DNA of 64,000 nt from positions 1 to 64,000 of IMG/VR virus record IMGVR_UViG_3300045971_000674. One strand, given 5' to 3'. The notes below the pieces were generated by a model. That model ran no database searches, was not told where the DNA came from, and saw only the letters and a program-made list of their open reading frames with translations. Source of the DNA: a virus. Made by a program: the position numbers and the translations under genes. Below are positions 2,940 to 11,029 of the stretch, piece by piece. Positions within the stretch are counted from its first letter, which is position 1, and every line of letters begins with the position of its first letter.

Positions 2940-5900
2940 TTAGACGGCTCGGCGCGTTAGCTCTGCTGTGTCAGGGAAGGTGGGCAAGACAGACCGCAGG
3001 AAACCTGGCTGGGTATCTTCCTTTGCAGTGGTGGCATCAAGCATCTTCTGCGCAACCTCCAACTGCTTCTTCAGGAGTTCAAGCGCTTCCTTCATGCCCA
3101 CAACCGTCATGCCCTTCTTCTTGGTCTCGTCCGTGTCTTCTTCAACCTGCGGCTTATTTACTTCTGGCAGAGTGACTTTTTGGCGGCCTTGTTGACCTGG
3201 TGTAGCAAGCGCTGCATTTGGCGAAACTGGAGTAGCTTGAACAGGAGTAGCCTTTGCCATGACAGTTTCGCCTGGGGTCAAGCTATCTTCTGGCTTGACG
3301 GGCGTTGCTTGAACTGCAGGCGTTGCTTCGGTCTTCGCATCCTGATCCTTCTTGGCTTGGGCGATTAGCGGTGCTTGTGCCGCGGCGACTGCGCCATGCG
3401 CTTGTGCCAACAGCTCCTTGGTACTGTTGGCAACTGTTCCACTTAGCTTCTTGCCCTGCTTCTTAGCATCTGCAGCCGCTTGTTGATTGGCTTCACCAAT
3501 GCTAGAGAGAGTAGCTTTGCCATCTTCTTGCAGGGTCTTCAGTGTTGCTTCGCCAGTCTTGACTTCTTCTTTGGCTGCATCTGCATTACCCTTGAACGTG
3601 TTCTTGATGAAGTCGGGGGCCCATGATGGCACCAAGCTGGTGAGGAAGTCCCAGAAAGCTGCCTTCGTAGAACGCCATGCAACTTGAATTTCGGTAAATG
3701 TTCGGTCGAACATGTTGGTCAGCGTGCCGCCCAGCAGTTCTTCAGTGTCAAGACCGATGCCCTTCAACAGAAAATCAAGTCCACCTGTTACTGCAGCGCC
3801 AATTCCGTGGAAAGCACCGATGATCATGCCATTGATCTTGTCGCTAACCATCTGACCCATGTCCCAGATCCAGCCCTTCTTCGACATGTCTACTTCCTTG
3901 GCCACCGTGCCAGCGCCTGCTGCAGCCAAGTTTCCAGTGAACAGTTCATCAAGAGCGCCCCATACTGCAGAGACAATCATGCCCAAGCCGAGTACGCTTG
4001 AAAGGCTTCCGAACAATGTGCTTGCGATTCCCTGTGCAGCAGTAGCCATTCCACCACCAGCCGCAACGACAGCGCCTTCACCAGCAATGGCAGCAGGCGC
4101 TGTCGTTGCGACGCTGCCAATCACCGTCTCCATTAAAGTGGTGGCAACTGTGCTTATGTCGCCGGTAATGGCAGCTTCAGCAAGAGTAGCAACCTTACCA
4201 AGACCTGGGAGTTTCCCAAGAGCTCCAGCCATCGGCACGCCCTTTGGCATGTTCGGCATTGGGAGTGTCATGCCCTTTGGAACGCCCGCGCCCGGAACCG
4301 TAGGCAGCGGTTTTGGAATGCCACCAGTTACAATTGGCTTGCCACCTACCGTTGTGGTGGGAGTTGGCCCTGTTGGTGGAGGCGTCTTTGGTGTGGTGGG
4401 CGTAGTCTCCTTCTTCTTGAAGATATCAAGTAAGCCGCCTTTCTCTTCCTTGCCTGTGGCAGGCACTAGACCATCCGTGTTCTTCGCAATCTTGCGGAGG
4501 AAAAGAACCTGGGCAACTGAGCCAGCAATCAACTCGGCAAATTGCTTTGCTGCGTCATACAGTGGGTTCTTGGTAATGCCCGTCAGCGTGGTCATGATGT
4601 TGCCCATCATTTGGGCCAGCGGCCCGGTCTCTTGACCCATACGACTGTTAACAACATCACCCGATTGCTTCTGCAACTGGGCCTTGCCTGCTACTTCAGC
4701 AACGTCGCGCTGCGAGGAACCCTGGATTGCTTCGTTGATCTGGTCAGCAATGTTCTGAGCACCAACGTCACCGCTGTTCTGCATGCCTTGCAAGCGCTCT
4801 TGCATTTGGCCATGTAGCTCAGTCAGGCGTGCATTCTCTTCCTCGGTCTTGTTCTTCTTCTGCGCAAGGCGTGCAAGTTCCTCAGTGTCCTGTGCATTCA
4901 TGCCAGTCATCGAGCCTGCTTGGCGAATGATGCCTGCTGCCTTGAAGCGATCCTTAGCAGTGGCGCGACGTTGCGCAAGCAGCGCATCAGTCAACTGCTT
5001 CGAGGTGTTCGCTGTCAAGCCCATCTGCTGGCCGAGAGTGGCCGTGTGCATGATGTCATCCATGCGAGCCTGACGTTCAGCAGGTGCAAGGCCTAGCAAT
5101 TCTTCCTGGACGTTCGTGTTGTTTGAGATGTCCTCGACAAGTGCCTTGAAGGCATCTGACGTCATCAGCGTAGACTTACGCAGCTGCTTGAACAACTTGA
5201 CTTGAGCCGTGGTGGCATCGGCCATCTGCGCCTGTGGAATGCCGACCGTAGTCGCAGCAGTTTCCATTGAGGCAGACAACTTACGAGCTGCAGGGCCAAA
5301 GATACCGAGCGAGCCGAGTTCCTTCGATGTCTTTGAGATGCTCTTGTCGAATTCTTCGAAGCTGCCCTTACGAGCCACGACAGCCTGATTCTCTTCAAGC
5401 ATCTCCGTGTATTCTGCCAAGGACATGCCTGCCTTGACGGCATTGGCGTACATGCCAGCGAGGTCCTTGGATCCAGAGATGCCACGCCGCTGCAAGCTGT
5501 AGAAGTCATCGATGATCTGGTACAGGAAGCCGAAGCTGTCCTTTAGCTTCTTCGTCTTCTCTTTCAGCAGGTCGAACTGAGTCTTGACTGGTTCAGCCGC
5601 CTTGCCGGCTTCTCCCACCTTCTCGGTGGTAGCCTTCACATTCTTGTTGAGCGAGGTTGCTGCTTGATTGAAACCTTGGGCCGTCTGTTGTGCAGCCTTA
5701 GCAGCCTGTTCACCAGCGGCAGCTGCAACCTGTGGGCAAGGGTCGCAGTTCTGGAGCTTCTTGCTGAAGGCCTCGAGACGACCTACAGTTACTAACAGAG
5801 CCCGATTGAGACGCGTGATGACGCTGACGGTGCCTTCGTCCTTCTTGTTCGGCTTTACTTCAATCTCAGGGGCCGTGCTCTTCGGCGTCTTAACCTGCGC

Positions 5901-6173
5901 CTTAGCGCCTAGACTGCGATTGAGTGCCTTGAAATGTCCAGTAGTTGTCTTGACGGTGCCACCAAGAGTGGACAAGCGGCCATCAACAATCTCGATGGTG
6001 CCGCCAAAGTTGTCGAGTGCAGTTGATGTAGCACGAATGCGATCGTTCAGACCCTTCAATCCCTTTGGACCTGCTGGGGCTGGGGGTGGTGTAGGGGCAG
6101 GCAGCGATGCAAACGCGGAGGCGATCGCCTTACCGAGCTTGGTTGCAATCAGTTGTGCTTCTGCTTCTGTCAT
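2940..6173 (-). CDS. Tail tape measure protein (gp29-like role)
   Basis: 1077 residues. The N-terminal ~120 residues are Pro/Ala-rich. A long helical, coiled-coil-prone body follows (QTAQGFNQAATSLNKNVKATTEKV and similar). A low-complexity Thr/Pro stretch lies around residues 590-640. Hydrophobic Gly/Ala-rich segments lie around residues 690-850 (VVAAGGGMATAAQ, GALDELFTGNLAAAGAGTV). The tail is charged and helical. Length, helicity and internal hydrophobic segments fit a phage tape measure protein, which sets tail length and is ejected with DNA. T4 gp29 is shorter (590). It diverges from the tail assembly chaperone gene at 6251, the expected partner. A late-promoter motif at 6229-6236 reads into it. 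The SD is poor (AGG abuts the ATG). Identification rests on architecture and context. Confidence 0.75.
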   Translation of the reverse strand: MTEAEAQLIATKLGKAIASAFASLPAPTPPPAPAGPKGLKGLNDRIRATSTALDNFGGTIEIVDGRLSTLGGTVKTTTGHFKALNRSLGAKAQVKTPKSTAPEIEVKPNKKDEGTVSVITRLNRALLVTVGRLEAFSKKLQNCDPCPQVAAAAGEQAAKAAQQTAQGFNQAATSLNKNVKATTEKVGEAGKAAEPVKTQFDLLKEKTKKLKDSFGFLYQIIDDFYSLQRRGISGSKDLAGMYANAVKAGMSLAEYTEMLEENQAVVARKGSFEEFDKSISKTSKELGSLGIFGPAARKLSASMETAATTVGIPQAQMADATTAQVKLFKQLRKSTLMTSDAFKALVEDISNNTNVQEELLGLAPAERQARMDDIMHTATLGQQMGLTANTSKQLTDALLAQRRATAKDRFKAAGIIRQAGSMTGMNAQDTEELARLAQKKNKTEEENARLTELHGQMQERLQGMQNSGDVGAQNIADQINEAIQGSSQRDVAEVAGKAQLQKQSGDVVNSRMGQETGPLAQMMGNIMTTLTGITKNPLYDAAKQFAELIAGSVAQVLFLRKIAKNTDGLVPATGKEEKGGLLDIFKKKETTPTTPKTPPPTGPTPTTTVGGKPIVTGGIPKPLPTVPGAGVPKGMTLPMPNMPKGVPMAGALGKLPGLGKVATLAEAAITGDISTVATTLMETVIGSVATTAPAAIAGEGAVVAAGGGMATAAQGIASTLFGSLSSVLGLGMIVSAVWGALDELFTGNLAAAGAGTVAKEVDMSKKGWIWDMGQMVSDKINGMIIGAFHGIGAAVTGGLDFLLKGIGLDTEELLGGTLTNMFDRTFTEIQVAWRSTKAAFWDFLTSLVPSWAPDFIKNTFKGNADAAKEEVKTGEATLKTLQEDGKATLSSIGEANQQAAADAKKQGKKLSGTVANSTKELLAQAHGAVAAAQAPLIAQAKKDQDAKTEATPAVQATPVKPEDSLTPGETVMAKATPVQATPVSPNAALATPGQQGRQKVTLPEVNKPQVEEDTDETKKKGMTVVGMKEALELLKKQLEVAQKMLDATTAKEDTQPGFLRSVLPTFPDTAELTRRAV

Positions 6174-6250: not shown

Positions 6251-7033
6251 ATGGAAACCAACATTCAGAACCCACTGCTCGCAAAGCTAAAGCTGCCGGG
6301 TCGTACCTTCCAGCTTCCCTCACGTGGAATCTTCTACAAGAACGGCGAAGTCGCTTCAGCTGAAGGCGAAATTCACGTTCACCCAATGTCTGCTCTCACC
6401 GAAATCAACCTCAAGAACCCTGACCTGTTGTTCAACGGCAAGGCAATCGAAGAGGTGATGGCTGAGTGTGTGCCTGAAATCAAGAAGCCACTCGAGCTGT
6501 TTGGCCGCGACATCGACGCCCTCATGTTCTTCCTGCGGTTGGTCACCTACGGCTCGGCCTTCGAGATCAATGTCAAGCACACCTGCAAGGATGCGAAGCA
6601 GCACTCGTACGTAGTTGATGTCGAGCAGATGGTCATGGCCATGAAGCAACTCGATCCAACACTGGTCGACCAGTTCCAAGTCACGCTGCCAAATGATCAG
6701 GTCGTTCGCCTCCGACCCGTCACATTCAGCCACATGGTCAAGCTATTCCAGATGAACACGGGCAAGGAAGAGCTGAAGCCTGAAGACATCAAGGCCAACA
6801 TCGTCTTCAACCTCGTCAACCTGATTGAGAGTGTTGATGGACTGACCGACAAGACCATGATCGAGGGTTGGGTTCGTGCCATCCCTACCACGCTGCAATC
6901 CCGCCTGACCGATGTCATCGAGAAGATGAACGATTGGGGTCCTGCCCAGACATCGAAGCTCAAGTGCAAGGACTGCGGTGAAGAGATGGATGTTGAGCTC
7001 CCGCTGAACCCTGTAAGTTTTTTCACCGAATGA
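6251..7033 (+). CDS. 26: Tail assembly chaperone / baseplate hub assembly protein, gp26-like
   Basis: 260 residues. The start resembles T4-type gp26 proteins of cyanophages and relatives: LKLPGRTFQLPSRGIFYKNG, then HPMSALTEI, NPDLLFNGKAIEEV and FFLRLVTYGSAF. A possible zinc site is formed by KHTCKD (near residue 115) and CKDCGEE (near residue 240), the C-x2-C lying close to the C-terminus. In T4, gp26 and gp51 act in hub assembly and are regarded as tail assembly chaperones. The last codons contain a T TTT TTC slippery heptamer (7018-7024) followed by a long hairpin, so some ribosomes should enter the -1 frame and make a 334-residue fusion with the next ORF. It lies divergent from the tape measure gene. 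A late-promoter motif is at 6208-6215 and GAGGA precedes the ATG. Confidence 0.8.
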   Translation: METNIQNPLLAKLKLPGRTFQLPSRGIFYKNGEVASAEGEIHVHPMSALTEINLKNPDLLFNGKAIEEVMAECVPEIKKPLELFGRDIDALMFFLRLVTYGSAFEINVKHTCKDAKQHSYVVDVEQMVMAMKQLDPTLVDQFQVTLPNDQVVRLRPVTFSHMVKLFQMNTGKEELKPEDIKANIVFNLVNLIESVDGLTDKTMIEGWVRAIPTTLQSRLTDVIEKMNDWGPAQTSKLKCKDCGEEMDVELPLNPVSFFTE

Positions 7034-7072
7034 TCATCTCCGGAGATACGAGCAGGATCTCCGAGATGATCA
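7018..7072 (+). promoter_or_regulatory. Programmed -1 frameshift signal (slippery site plus hairpin)
   Basis: The heptamer T TTT TTC (7018-7024) is in the X XXY YYZ register of the gp26-like frame. After a six-base spacer a hairpin starts: 7031-7040 (TGATCATCTC) pairs perfectly with 7063-7072 (GAGATGATCA). C7041 is bulged, 7042-7047 (GGAGAT) pairs with 7057-7062 (ATCTCC), and nine bases form the loop. Slipping one base back leads through CAC CGA into the ORF starting at 7030. Tail chaperone pairs of many dsDNA phages use such a shift (lambda G/GT). Confidence 0.85.
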
Positions 7073-7254
7073 ATTCGATGGCCCTTGACGTTAGAAGCCT
7101 GCTCAAATCCGCAATCGAAATCTCCTACTTTTCACGCGCTGCAATCGCCTACGAGAAGGTTCTTACCATTTCCGCACTCGAACGGGATCTCTGGGTTGAA
7201 TTCATCAATGAACGCCTGAAGATAGCCGGGAAGTCCCCCTTTCCGGTATTCTGA
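7030..7254 (+). CDS. Downstream half of frameshifted tail assembly chaperone (gp51-position)
   Basis: This is an open frame of 74 codons in the -1 frame relative to the gp26-like gene, overlapping its stop by ATGA. The product (MIISGDTSRISEMINSMALD...) is helical and without recognised motifs. Independent start at 7030 looks poor: the upstream sequence TTTTTTCACCGA has no Shine-Dalgarno and the ATG is buried in the hairpin 7031-7072. The likely product is therefore a gp26-gp51-type fusion: residues 1-258 of the upstream protein, then H-R, then these 74 residues. By analogy with lambda gpGT and the T4 26/51 pair it would bind the tape measure protein and recruit tube subunits. T4 gp51 is much longer (249), so homology to it is not shown. 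Confidence 0.7.
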   Translation: MIISGDTSRISEMINSMALDVRSLLKSAIEISYFSRAAIAYEKVLTISALERDLWVEFINERLKIAGKSPFPVF

Positions 7255-7291: not shown

Positions 7292-8938
7292 ATGAAAATC
7301 TTCCAAAGTACCGAGCTATCTCGGCACCCCATTGCTGAAATGGAGGCTGCGACAAAATTCTATGTCGATAGCCAAGTCACCAATGGCGCCATCGTCGGCG
7401 GTCTCTTCTTCACCAACATTGCACCCACTTCTACGGGTATCGTTGGTAGCAAGCAGTACGTCGCTGGCACCACGCCATCCAACATCGTCATCTCTGAAGG
7501 CACCACCGATACCAACAGCGTGACTGTCACGTTGTATGCTGAAGGCGGTTCTGCATTCTTCTCCCCAACAATCACGATCACCACAGTGCCTGCACAGTCT
7601 GGTGGTCCGATCATCGCCACCCTGTCACAGAGCGTGACTGGCGACCGTGTCTACACGGCAACTGCCAACCTCACGAACATCACCGCTGACACCGTCGTCA
7701 ACGCTTCGTCATCGACCAACGCCACTGCAACAACCACGATTCGCCGCGCCGCTGCGGGTCCAGTGCTTGATGTGCTGACAATCGGTGGCTACCCAGGTGC
7801 ACAGACTGCTGTCAAGGCAGGCGACACCGTTACCGTCTCTGGCCGTGTTGCCAACACCGCAACCTACGCCGAAATCGTGGCAGGTGGCGCAGCAGCTTCG
7901 TTGGTCTCCATGACACTGGGTGCTGACAACAGCTTCAGCACTGGCTTCAAGACGATCACCGCAACGGTCACGATCAGCGGTCTCTCAGGTGCTCAGACGG
8001 TTTCTGCTCGTGCACGCAATGCACTCGGTACCTACGGTTCGACCTTCGCATCGACCAACACGATCACGCTTGACCAGGTCTACCCAACCATCGGTGCATT
8101 CTCGATCGCCTACCCAGCCACTCAGTCTGGTTTGAAGACTGGCGAATCGGCAACGGTCACATCGACGGTCACGAACTTCACAACGATCAGCTACTCAGGC
8201 ACGAACCTTTCGATCGGTTCTCCAACGACGTATGCAGCTTCCAAGACTGCTTCGCTGACTGGTGGAACCTACTCGTTCGGTTCCAACAACTACACGATCA
8301 GCGCCAACAAGGCAGCCAACAACTCGACGACGACGACTTCAACTGCCGTGACGATCGCTGCAGTTGCCCCAACCGCTGCAATCACGTACTCGCCAACTGG
8401 TCGCATGCTGTCATCGCCGCTGGGCGTCAGCTACACGGTCACCATCACCGCTGACCAGCGTCTCGCATCTGCACCATCGCTCACTGCTTCTTCTGGCACG
8501 TGGCAAGGTGCATGGACTGGTTCTGGCGCCACTTGGACTCGCGTGCTGAAGATCGTTGACTCTGATCCAAAGGGTTCGCAGACATTCAGCGCACTGTCAA
8601 TGACAGGTCTGGCCAACATGTCCGGTTCGACGATCACATCTGGTGCTTCGTACACTGTTGGTGGCTTCGCTACCCGCACGATCACGTTCCCAGCCTTCGC
8701 TCGCTACGCAGCAATCGGCACGAACATCGTCGACATCACGAAGGTCACCGCATCGTACACCGGCTCCACGGTCCTGACTCGTCAGACCTCGACAGCCGAC
8801 GTGTTCCAAGGTTTCACGATCGTCGACGCAACTGGAACGTACAGCCCAACAGGAGGATACCTGATGATCTCGGACGTTGCATTCGCGGGTTCGAACACAA
8901 CTGGTACACTTCAACTTGACGTGACGGAGGCTGCATAA
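7292..8938 (+). CDS. Ig-like multidomain virion surface protein
   Basis: 548 residues. The N-terminus MKIFQSTELSRHPIAEMEAATKFYVD resembles the attachment segments of phage fibre proteins. The rest is Thr/Ser/Ala-rich beta-sandwich sequence with repeated units (ATVTISGLSGAQTVSARARNALG; YSGTNLSIGSPTTYAAS; AVTIAAVAPTAAITYSPTG) of the bacterial Ig-like type, about 90-100 residues each. Such domains decorate capsids or tails and bind weakly to cell-surface or environmental glycans. There is no signal peptide, as expected of a virion protein. The late-promoter motif is at 7256-7263, two bases after the preceding stop. It overlaps the next gene by one base (TAATG), so the two are probably co-translated. 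Exact virion location is unknown. Confidence 0.65.
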   Translation: MKIFQSTELSRHPIAEMEAATKFYVDSQVTNGAIVGGLFFTNIAPTSTGIVGSKQYVAGTTPSNIVISEGTTDTNSVTVTLYAEGGSAFFSPTITITTVPAQSGGPIIATLSQSVTGDRVYTATANLTNITADTVVNASSSTNATATTTIRRAAAGPVLDVLTIGGYPGAQTAVKAGDTVTVSGRVANTATYAEIVAGGAAASLVSMTLGADNSFSTGFKTITATVTISGLSGAQTVSARARNALGTYGSTFASTNTITLDQVYPTIGAFSIAYPATQSGLKTGESATVTSTVTNFTTISYSGTNLSIGSPTTYAASKTASLTGGTYSFGSNNYTISANKAANNSTTTTSTAVTIAAVAPTAAITYSPTGRMLSSPLGVSYTVTITADQRLASAPSLTASSGTWQGAWTGSGATWTRVLKIVDSDPKGSQTFSALSMTGLANMSGSTITSGASYTVGGFATRTITFPAFARYAAIGTNIVDITKVTASYTGSTVLTRQTSTADVFQGFTIVDATGTYSPTGGYLMISDVAFAGSNTTGTLQLDVTEAA

Positions 8939-9449: not shown

Positions 9450-9773
9450 GTCTCCATCTTCGTCGAACTCGGCACGGAGGATGGCCTTTGCAAGCCACTT
9501 CTTGGCCACCTCGAGTGGAATGCCGTGCACGTTGCTCATCGAGTCGACCTTCTTGCGCTTGCCTTGACCCAAGTTGCGATGCGCATCGCTGTCATCGAGC
9601 CGCTGCAGGTAGAGCTGGACGATGTAACTGTCGCCTGTTGCGCCGTTGGTTCTCGTGTCGAAGAGGAGGAGCAGATGCAGCTCGCCCTGTCGAATGCGGT
9701 AGGACTTGTCATCTGCAATCCAACGTGCGTTGAAGACCTTTCTGAGCATCATGCCCATCTGGATAGTGTTCAT
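9420..9773 (-). CDS. Hypothetical protein, 117 aa
   Basis: I do not recognise this protein. It begins MNTIQMGMMLRKVFNARWIADDKSY, has a mixed alpha/beta look (GELHLLLLFDTRT; YIVQLYLQRLDD) and a charged C-terminus ending TPPTTRDL. Its ATG overlaps the stop of the polymerase-like gene (ATGA at 9770-9773), so it is co-translated with it as the last gene of that minus-strand operon. Its final codons lie inside the dispersed repeat shared with 56242-56278, so its C-terminus may have been altered by a recombination event. Confidence 0.6.
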   Translation of the reverse strand: MNTIQMGMMLRKVFNARWIADDKSYRIRQGELHLLLLFDTRTNGATGDSYIVQLYLQRLDDSDAHRNLGQGKRKKVDSMSNVHGIPLEVAKKWLAKAILRAEFDEDGDSTPPTTRDL

Positions 9774-11029
9774 GTTGTCACCTTCAGACCTATCTTCTGC
9801 ATGAGGGCTGGCAAGTTGTCGAGGTACTCTTGCGGAACTCCGTCGATGCCATCATGCACCATGATCCCATGGTGGCCAACCTCTTTCCAGATGGCGTAGC
9901 GAGCTTGTCGTTCCCATTCGAAGTAGCCCGAGAACACGAGCTTCTGGTTCGTGCGAGATGGGTGCAGCCCGTATTGGGTGATGCAGACCAGGCGGCGCGC
10001 ATCCGAGTACTGACGGGAGATGCGTCGAAGCCTCATTCCAATTGCGTCGAGGTTCTCCACTGACAGATCATCAGTGGCTTGGATGACGAGGTCTGCAGTG
10101 ACCGAGAATCCATTGTTGCCTGACAGAATGGCGGGAGAGATGCGGGAGCCGTTGGCCAGACTCATGCACAGCTTCTTGACGATCGAGATGTTCTCGTCGG
10201 TCCATTGCAGACCCATGAGAGCACACAGCTCTTGGCGGAATGCTTGCTTGTCCTTCACTGAGCGCACGATGTCAGGATAGAAGAGCAGAATTCGCTCCTC
10301 CGACTCCGTGCGCTGGAGTTGTGACAGGAGGTATTGGGTGTAAGCGGCCTCGATATCGATGCCCGGGCCGAACAGTTGCTCACGTAACCATGCTGGCCAG
10401 GTCTCGATTGCAGCGACCGGCCACACAGAGGTGTCACGTTGCTGCAGCTTGCCAGATCGTTGGAAGATGAAGTTGACCTCGGTCTGTCGAAGCAACCAGT
10501 CGGTGGCTGCACGCAGGTCGGCACGATTCTCTTCAGCGAGGCGAAGTCGAATCGTCTCGGCGTTCTGCTGTTGGATGTGTACCTTGGAGATGGTCCCATC
10601 ATCCGGCCGTTCTGGCGGAACGTAGAGGAGACCGAGACGGATCATGCCCTCACCGAAGTTTCGGCCACCAGCTGGGGCGTACTCGATGTTCTTGGGGATG
10701 AGGGTGGAGACCTCATGCGCACCTTCACCGAAGTTGAAGCCGATCTGCTTCACCTCGAAGAAGTAGTCAAGCACGACGCGGTAGTCGTGTACCCAATCAC
10801 GCAGCGTCATCAGCCGGAACGGCACCTCACAGAAAGCACGTGGCTTGTTGGAGATGGCGCAGTGTTTGACAGCAGTGGCGTGGAGCTGCGCGAGATAGAG
10901 GATCAAGTCCTGCCGATCTTGCATCTTGCTGCGGTGTCGCCGCTGCTTGTCAGGGTAGAAGTTGCAGACATGCAGCGGGTCTGCGGGGTGCAGATCCCGA
11001 TTGGCTCTGACCTTGTAGACCGTGGTCAC
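9770..11029 (-). CDS. Putative compact polymerase with T7 RNAP / Pol I-like palm motifs
   Basis: 419 residues, GTG start overlapping the preceding 49-codon gene (GTGA). The C-terminal half has three motifs in the order and rough spacing of family-A/T7-type polymerases. Motif A-like GIDIEAAYTQYL has Asp225; T7 RNAP has Asp537 with Gln at the same offset as this protein's Gln. Motif B-like KKLCMSLANGSR (285-296) aligns without gaps to T7 RNAP KRSVMTLAYGSK, with Asn293 in place of Tyr639. Motif C-like IMVHDGIDGVP has His392-Asp393; T7 has VHDSFGTIP. The A-to-C distance (168) is near that of Pol I (177). The N-terminal half is unrecognised, and T7 RNAP is twice as long. The motifs are visible; the activity is inference, and a degenerate or different nucleotidyl-transfer enzyme is possible. 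Confidence 0.45.
   Translation of the reverse strand: MTTVYKVRANRDLHPADPLHVCNFYPDKQRRHRSKMQDRQDLILYLAQLHATAVKHCAISNKPRAFCEVPFRLMTLRDWVHDYRVVLDYFFEVKQIGFNFGEGAHEVSTLIPKNIEYAPAGGRNFGEGMIRLGLLYVPPERPDDGTISKVHIQQQNAETIRLRLAEENRADLRAATDWLLRQTEVNFIFQRSGKLQQRDTSVWPVAAIETWPAWLREQLFGPGIDIEAAYTQYLLSQLQRTESEERILLFYPDIVRSVKDKQAFRQELCALMGLQWTDENISIVKKLCMSLANGSRISPAILSGNNGFSVTADLVIQATDDLSVENLDAIGMRLRRISRQYSDARRLVCITQYGLHPSRTNQKLVFSGYFEWERQARYAIWKEVGHHGIMVHDGIDGVPQEYLDNLPALMQKIGLKVTT

Follow-up and report, generated by a model that had tools for sequence, protein, structure and literature searches.

A gp26-like gene ending in a conserved slippery run and followed by a −1 frame domain predicts short and long tail assembly chaperones in a T4-like phage group

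The tail assembly chaperone (TAC) of phage lambda is produced as gpG and, by a −1 frameshift, as gpGT, and TACs made by frameshifting are known from most long-tailed phages, with T4 given as an exception in a 2016 review (PMC5009743). The T4 proteins gp26 and gp51 were described by Leiman et al. as hub assembly chaperones, gp51 being required yet absent from the particle, and the 2010 review (PMC3004832) gives gp51 as essential, its function being unknown. Vladimirov, Gautam and Davidson 2022, as cited in two later papers, identified gp26 and gp51 as the TACs of T4-like phages (PMC10885494, PMC12846349). Passages citing that work state that in some T4-like phages a short gene is accompanied by a longer, fused one (the PRFect paper, PMC10885494) and refer to poly-T frameshift signals in T4-like TAC-N genes (the Adele paper, PMC12846349). 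A TAC locus with −1 frameshifting is also found in the Vandenendeviridae and Andersonviridae (PMC12846349). Because frameshifted T4-like TACs have already been described, the kind of locus reported here is known, and the phage group represented by the window (the whole stretch of 64,000 nucleotides of viral DNA that was analyzed) is an added member; its standing as a new member of the frameshifted TACs is well supported by sequence comparison.

Like lambda gpG/gpGT, the locus in the window has one gene predicted to give a short form and a −1 frameshifted long form, with a C-terminal domain on the long form only and a tape-measure gene adjoining. It differs from lambda in its U-run heptamer, in the strong hairpin present in its clade, in an N-domain belonging to the T4 gp26 family, and in being divergent from the putative tape-measure gene. 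The Vandenendeviridae and Andersonviridae share with it a GTTTTT-type poly-T slippery site ending TAC-N and a −1 frame that is uninterrupted across the lineage, but in those families the tape-measure gene comes immediately downstream of the TAC genes. The T4 proteins gp26 and gp51 are likewise a short and a long form with a common PF12322 domain; T4, however, encodes them in two divergent genes that have no slippery site, whereas the window has a single gene with a predicted −1 frameshift.

We consider it very probable that the locus is the TAC gene of a T4-like myovirus, in which a −1 frameshift yields a 260-aa short form and a 334-aa long form (Table 1). ORF1 matches PF12322 (T4_baseplate) at 5.3e-11 and 43.1 bits, above the gathering cut-off of 24.5, and phrog_150 (baseplate hub) at 7.9e-13. 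Its AlphaFold model has a pLDDT of 78, and it matches BFVD entries that bear the name baseplate hub protein, with E values down to 1.5e-17. Among the 50 PDB matches listed for the N-domain model, the HK97 tail assembly chaperone 2ob9 had the highest probability (0.44; TM 0.55 by target), with an E value of 2.8, which is not significant. Searching PDB sequences with profiles of the family, of gp51, and of the C-terminal (T) domain gave no significant match.

Table 1. Features of the predicted tail assembly chaperone locus, in window coordinates
Feature	Position	Strand	Basis
ORF1, predicted TAC-N (gp26-like short tail assembly chaperone), 260 aa, zero-frame product	6251–7033	+	
Slippery heptamer T TTT TTC (tandem Phe codons)	7018–7024	+	Sequence, conservation
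Spacer, 6 nt	7025–7030	+	Sequence
ATGA, ORF1 stop overlapped by a possible restart codon, without Shine-Dalgarno	7030–7033	+	Sequence, start scan
Predicted stimulatory hairpin: 10 bp, bulged C7041, 6 bp, 9-nt loop	7031–7072	+	Folding, covariation
C-terminal (T) domain in the −1 frame, contributing 76 aa past the slip; would give the 334-aa TAC-NC fusion	7024–7254	+	
Probable tape-measure protein, 1077 aa, divergent from ORF1; expected chaperone partner	2940–6173	−	

The 3′ end of ORF1 reads ...GTA AGT TTT TTC ACC GAA TGA, and the heptamer stands in the register for tandem −1 slippage, followed by the six-base spacer, as the initial annotation of this DNA had described. It is the only copy of TTTTTTC on the two strands of the 64-kb window, against 5.2 expected by chance. 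An open −1 frame spans 6997–7254, reaching 73 codons beyond the ORF1 stop, and a slip at the heptamer would give the 334-aa fusion of 258 and 76 residues predicted earlier. The downstream ORF, correctly placed in the −1 frame and without a Shine-Dalgarno sequence, has an ATG (7030–7032) that overlaps the ORF1 stop TGA (7031–7033) at the foot of the hairpin, and from this ATG the T domain can alternatively be read as a 74-aa ORF. The window contains 180 open frames with 100 codons or more, and this frame alone (1/180) has both an in-frame X XXY YYZ motif close to its end and a −1 extension of at least 57 codons. A long −1 extension by itself was present in 68/180 frames, owing to the G+C content of the window. 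Extension length was therefore dropped as evidence in its own right; what carries weight is the co-occurrence of motif and extension, together with conservation among the relatives.

An in-frame T6C, T7, or T8 run coding for the final Phe-Phe was present in 25/25 distinct loci with a −1 extension, 10 from the clade of the window (the window included) and 15 others, drawn from close metagenomic loci and annotated jumbo phages; relatives of the window among them have 23–82% protein identity. At the same Phe-Phe junction, the −1 frame extends 51–80 codons past the stop. The initial annotation had proposed programmed −1 frameshifting by comparison with lambda gpGT and had suggested examining this junction in related phages; the conservation found there strongly supports a frameshift. 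The same architecture is seen in the gp26 homologs of RaK2, 121Q, GAP32, CBB, BF, PA5oct, XacN1, and Atu_ph07, which have the same gene, the Phe-Phe slippery run, and the −1 domain. In the records of these jumbo phages the −1 domain is unannotated or labeled hypothetical protein, as in PA5oct (L007 3819–4055) and RaK2 (L009 3813–4043), where it carries no annotation (L numbers designate loci). Scans of viral contigs with XacN1 alone or with XacN1 and RAS14 returned no relatives, and a scan with Atu_ph07 returned only its own genome. Bacillus phage SP-15 (L036 2875–3615) and the uncultured phage LR756508 (L026) carry a similar C-terminal domain, apparently reached through the +1 (or −2) frame; SP-15 does contain a TTTTTTC run, but in another register.

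Across the 25 loci the −1 frame encodes a conserved domain of ~70–80 residues, and the products align with a common region '..Y..xL.M(S/T/P)..ER(D)...'; in the 25-row profile of the domain, the four rows from loci with T7 or T8 runs (L042, L045, L004, and L005) are short stubs. Among the six close loci, pS is 0.50–0.95 against a pN of 0.11–0.33 within the domain, no stops occur in the −1 ORF compared with 1–8 in the zero and +1 frames, and dN/dS is about 0.05–0.2 where calculable. These substitution patterns indicate that purifying selection acts on the −1 domain. Searches of family profiles gave no convincing match for the −1 ORF. The predicted structure of the domain consists of three helices (pLDDT 77), for which Foldseek found no significant fold match among viral models.

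The hairpin of 10 + 6 bp with one bulge also withstood reanalysis: positions 7031–7040 pair with 7063–7072 and positions 7042–7047 with 7057–7062, leaving C7041 bulged. Its minimum free energy is −28.1 kcal/mol (z = −5.4), and 0/200 shuffled sequences were equally stable. In the six closest loci the hairpin keeps its stability (z of −2.6 to −5.0), and two-sided compensatory changes occur at 3/15 pairs in 6 sequences, a level reached by 3/500 shuffles. A stable hairpin after the slippery site is absent in relatives of the RaK2/121Q/GAP32 type, where z is about 0 or positive. The structure thus weakens or disappears with distance from the clade of the window, whereas the slippery run is almost universally kept. 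The initial annotation had held that relatives keeping both ORFs without heptamer and stem would count against a frameshift: no such loss of the run was seen, and it is the stem that distant relatives do not have. This distribution suggests that the slippery run is the core signal and that the hairpin, being missing in distant relatives, is a lineage-specific stimulator.

The ATGA overlap raises the question of whether the C-terminal domain is also, or instead, made as a free protein. An ATG at the same spot just past Phe-Phe is found in the window and in L002, L038, L039, L003, L041, L046, and L035, so that the overlap beside the heptamer is conserved in the closest relatives. In the clade of the window, a free C-terminal domain initiated at ATG 7030 could accompany the frameshift fusion as a third product, but we regard this as unlikely, since the ATG is without a Shine-Dalgarno sequence, lies at the foot of a strong hairpin, and is not conserved family-wide. 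Somewhat less likely still is that the hairpin and ATG 7030 form a three-way switch in this clade between stop, −1 slip, and re-initiation; if they did, one site would set the ratio of three tail-assembly proteins. That frameshifting is dispensed with altogether, and ribosomes that terminate at the ATGA re-initiate there to make a separate 74-aa protein (translational coupling), is improbable. Such overlaps are ordinary in phages and the shared ATG would suit this explanation, but the PA5oct domain contains no ATG, GTG, or TTG anywhere in the start scan and is therefore expressible there only as a fusion. In L008, L009, L030, and L032–L034, moreover, the first start codon lies at least 12 codons inside the domain, the slippery run is kept where the ATG is not, and in T4 gp51 the domain is fused in frame.

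With a fused product as the preferred reading, the second frame could in principle be supplied by transcriptional rather than ribosomal slippage at the T run. The T7–T8 runs of the four loci named above would favor this, but most members have exactly six T followed by C in tandem-codon register, and the hairpin is placed at ribosomal spacing. A run of six T is short for polymerase slippage, and we consider this explanation very improbable. That the heptamer and overlap arose by chance, or that one gene was split by an indel in the assembly, has a negligible probability even though long −1 overlaps are frequent in this G+C-rich window, as it is contradicted by the relatives, with the same junction in 25 loci and selection on the −1 domain.

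T4 genes 26 and 51 are adjacent and divergently transcribed (L010 5803–7229), and they are paralogs by PF12322, which each protein matches over its full length (8.8e-64 for gp26 and 3.9e-52 for gp51). What sets gp51 apart from gp26 is an extension at its C terminus, matching the −1 domain: the T domain aligned with the gp51 C terminus at an hhalign score of 29.9, compared with a maximum of 16.4 for 150 column-permuted controls, and with an E value of 7.8e-6 as a single comparison. The match to the full-length gp51 profile was weaker (46%, E = 2e-4). The downstream ORF had originally been described as lying in the gp51 position; equating it with gp51 is ruled out by the presence of the entire PF12322 domain in T4 gp51. 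Because gp51 has the whole of PF12322 and a tail matching the −1 domain, the fusion, and not the downstream ORF alone, is the gp51 equivalent. TAC-N, the short chaperone that corresponds to gp26, would thus be made without the shift, and TAC-NC, the long one that corresponds to gp51, would be the fusion.

Gene number is consistent with this correspondence. One PF12322 gene was found in 16/16 non-T4 records searched (14 of the −1 type and two of the +1 type, SP-15 and LR756508), against two in T4. The window record, one of these 16, has one PF12322 gene rather than the two per genome of the T4 type, although it is possibly a fragment, and its single copy is therefore not proof. The T-run signal is absent from gp26 of seven two-gene phages, T4 and six relatives. 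Taken with the match to the gp51 tail, one PF12322 gene against two in T4 argues that a single frameshifted gene corresponds to the two genes of T4. In RB43-type phages, a gp51 homolog is followed by a same-strand gene of 558 bases in the gp26 position, putatively gp26.

The chaperone gene adjoins a predicted tape-measure gene in divergent orientation. This assignment depends on a chain of weak matches: the protein encoded at 2940–6173 has 32% identity over 404 aa to the divergent neighbor in L003 and matches the RaK2 neighbor at 2e-5, and the Serratia phage BF homolog of that RaK2 protein matches tape-measure PHROGs at 1e-6. The gene is thus probably the tape-measure gene. On the other side, a 548-aa protein (7292–8938, + strand) matches a 'tail sheath' PHROG at 1e-89 over profile positions 278–797 only; it is repetitive and by eye unlike the T4 sheath, and the family name may be wrong. 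A 419-aa ORF (9770–11029, − strand) has a similar ORF of 413 aa in the same place in L003 (5719–6960, − strand).

In the mechanism that we propose, most ribosomes would terminate at 7031–7033 and release the 260-aa TAC-N, whereas a minority would pause at the hairpin (7031–7072) with two tRNA-Phe on U UUU UUC, move one base backward, and complete the 334-aa TAC-NC, whose C-terminal domain of 76 aa is predicted to be helical. The N-domain common to both forms would, by analogy with lambda gpG/gpGT, coat the tape-measure protein (probably that encoded at 2940–6173), with the C-terminal domain serving to recruit tail-tube subunits. The sequences show the signal and its conservation, selection on the −1 domain, one gene copy, and similarity to the tail of gp51; the slip and its efficiency are inferred, and so is the chaperone role, from homology and analogy.

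Under this mechanism, one gene would do by frameshifting what T4 does with the paralogous genes 26 and 51, which supports reading gp51 as the long chaperone form and suggests that the single frameshifted gene is a possible ancestral state. The jumbo-phage annotations examined miss the C-terminal domain or call it hypothetical, and they can be corrected.
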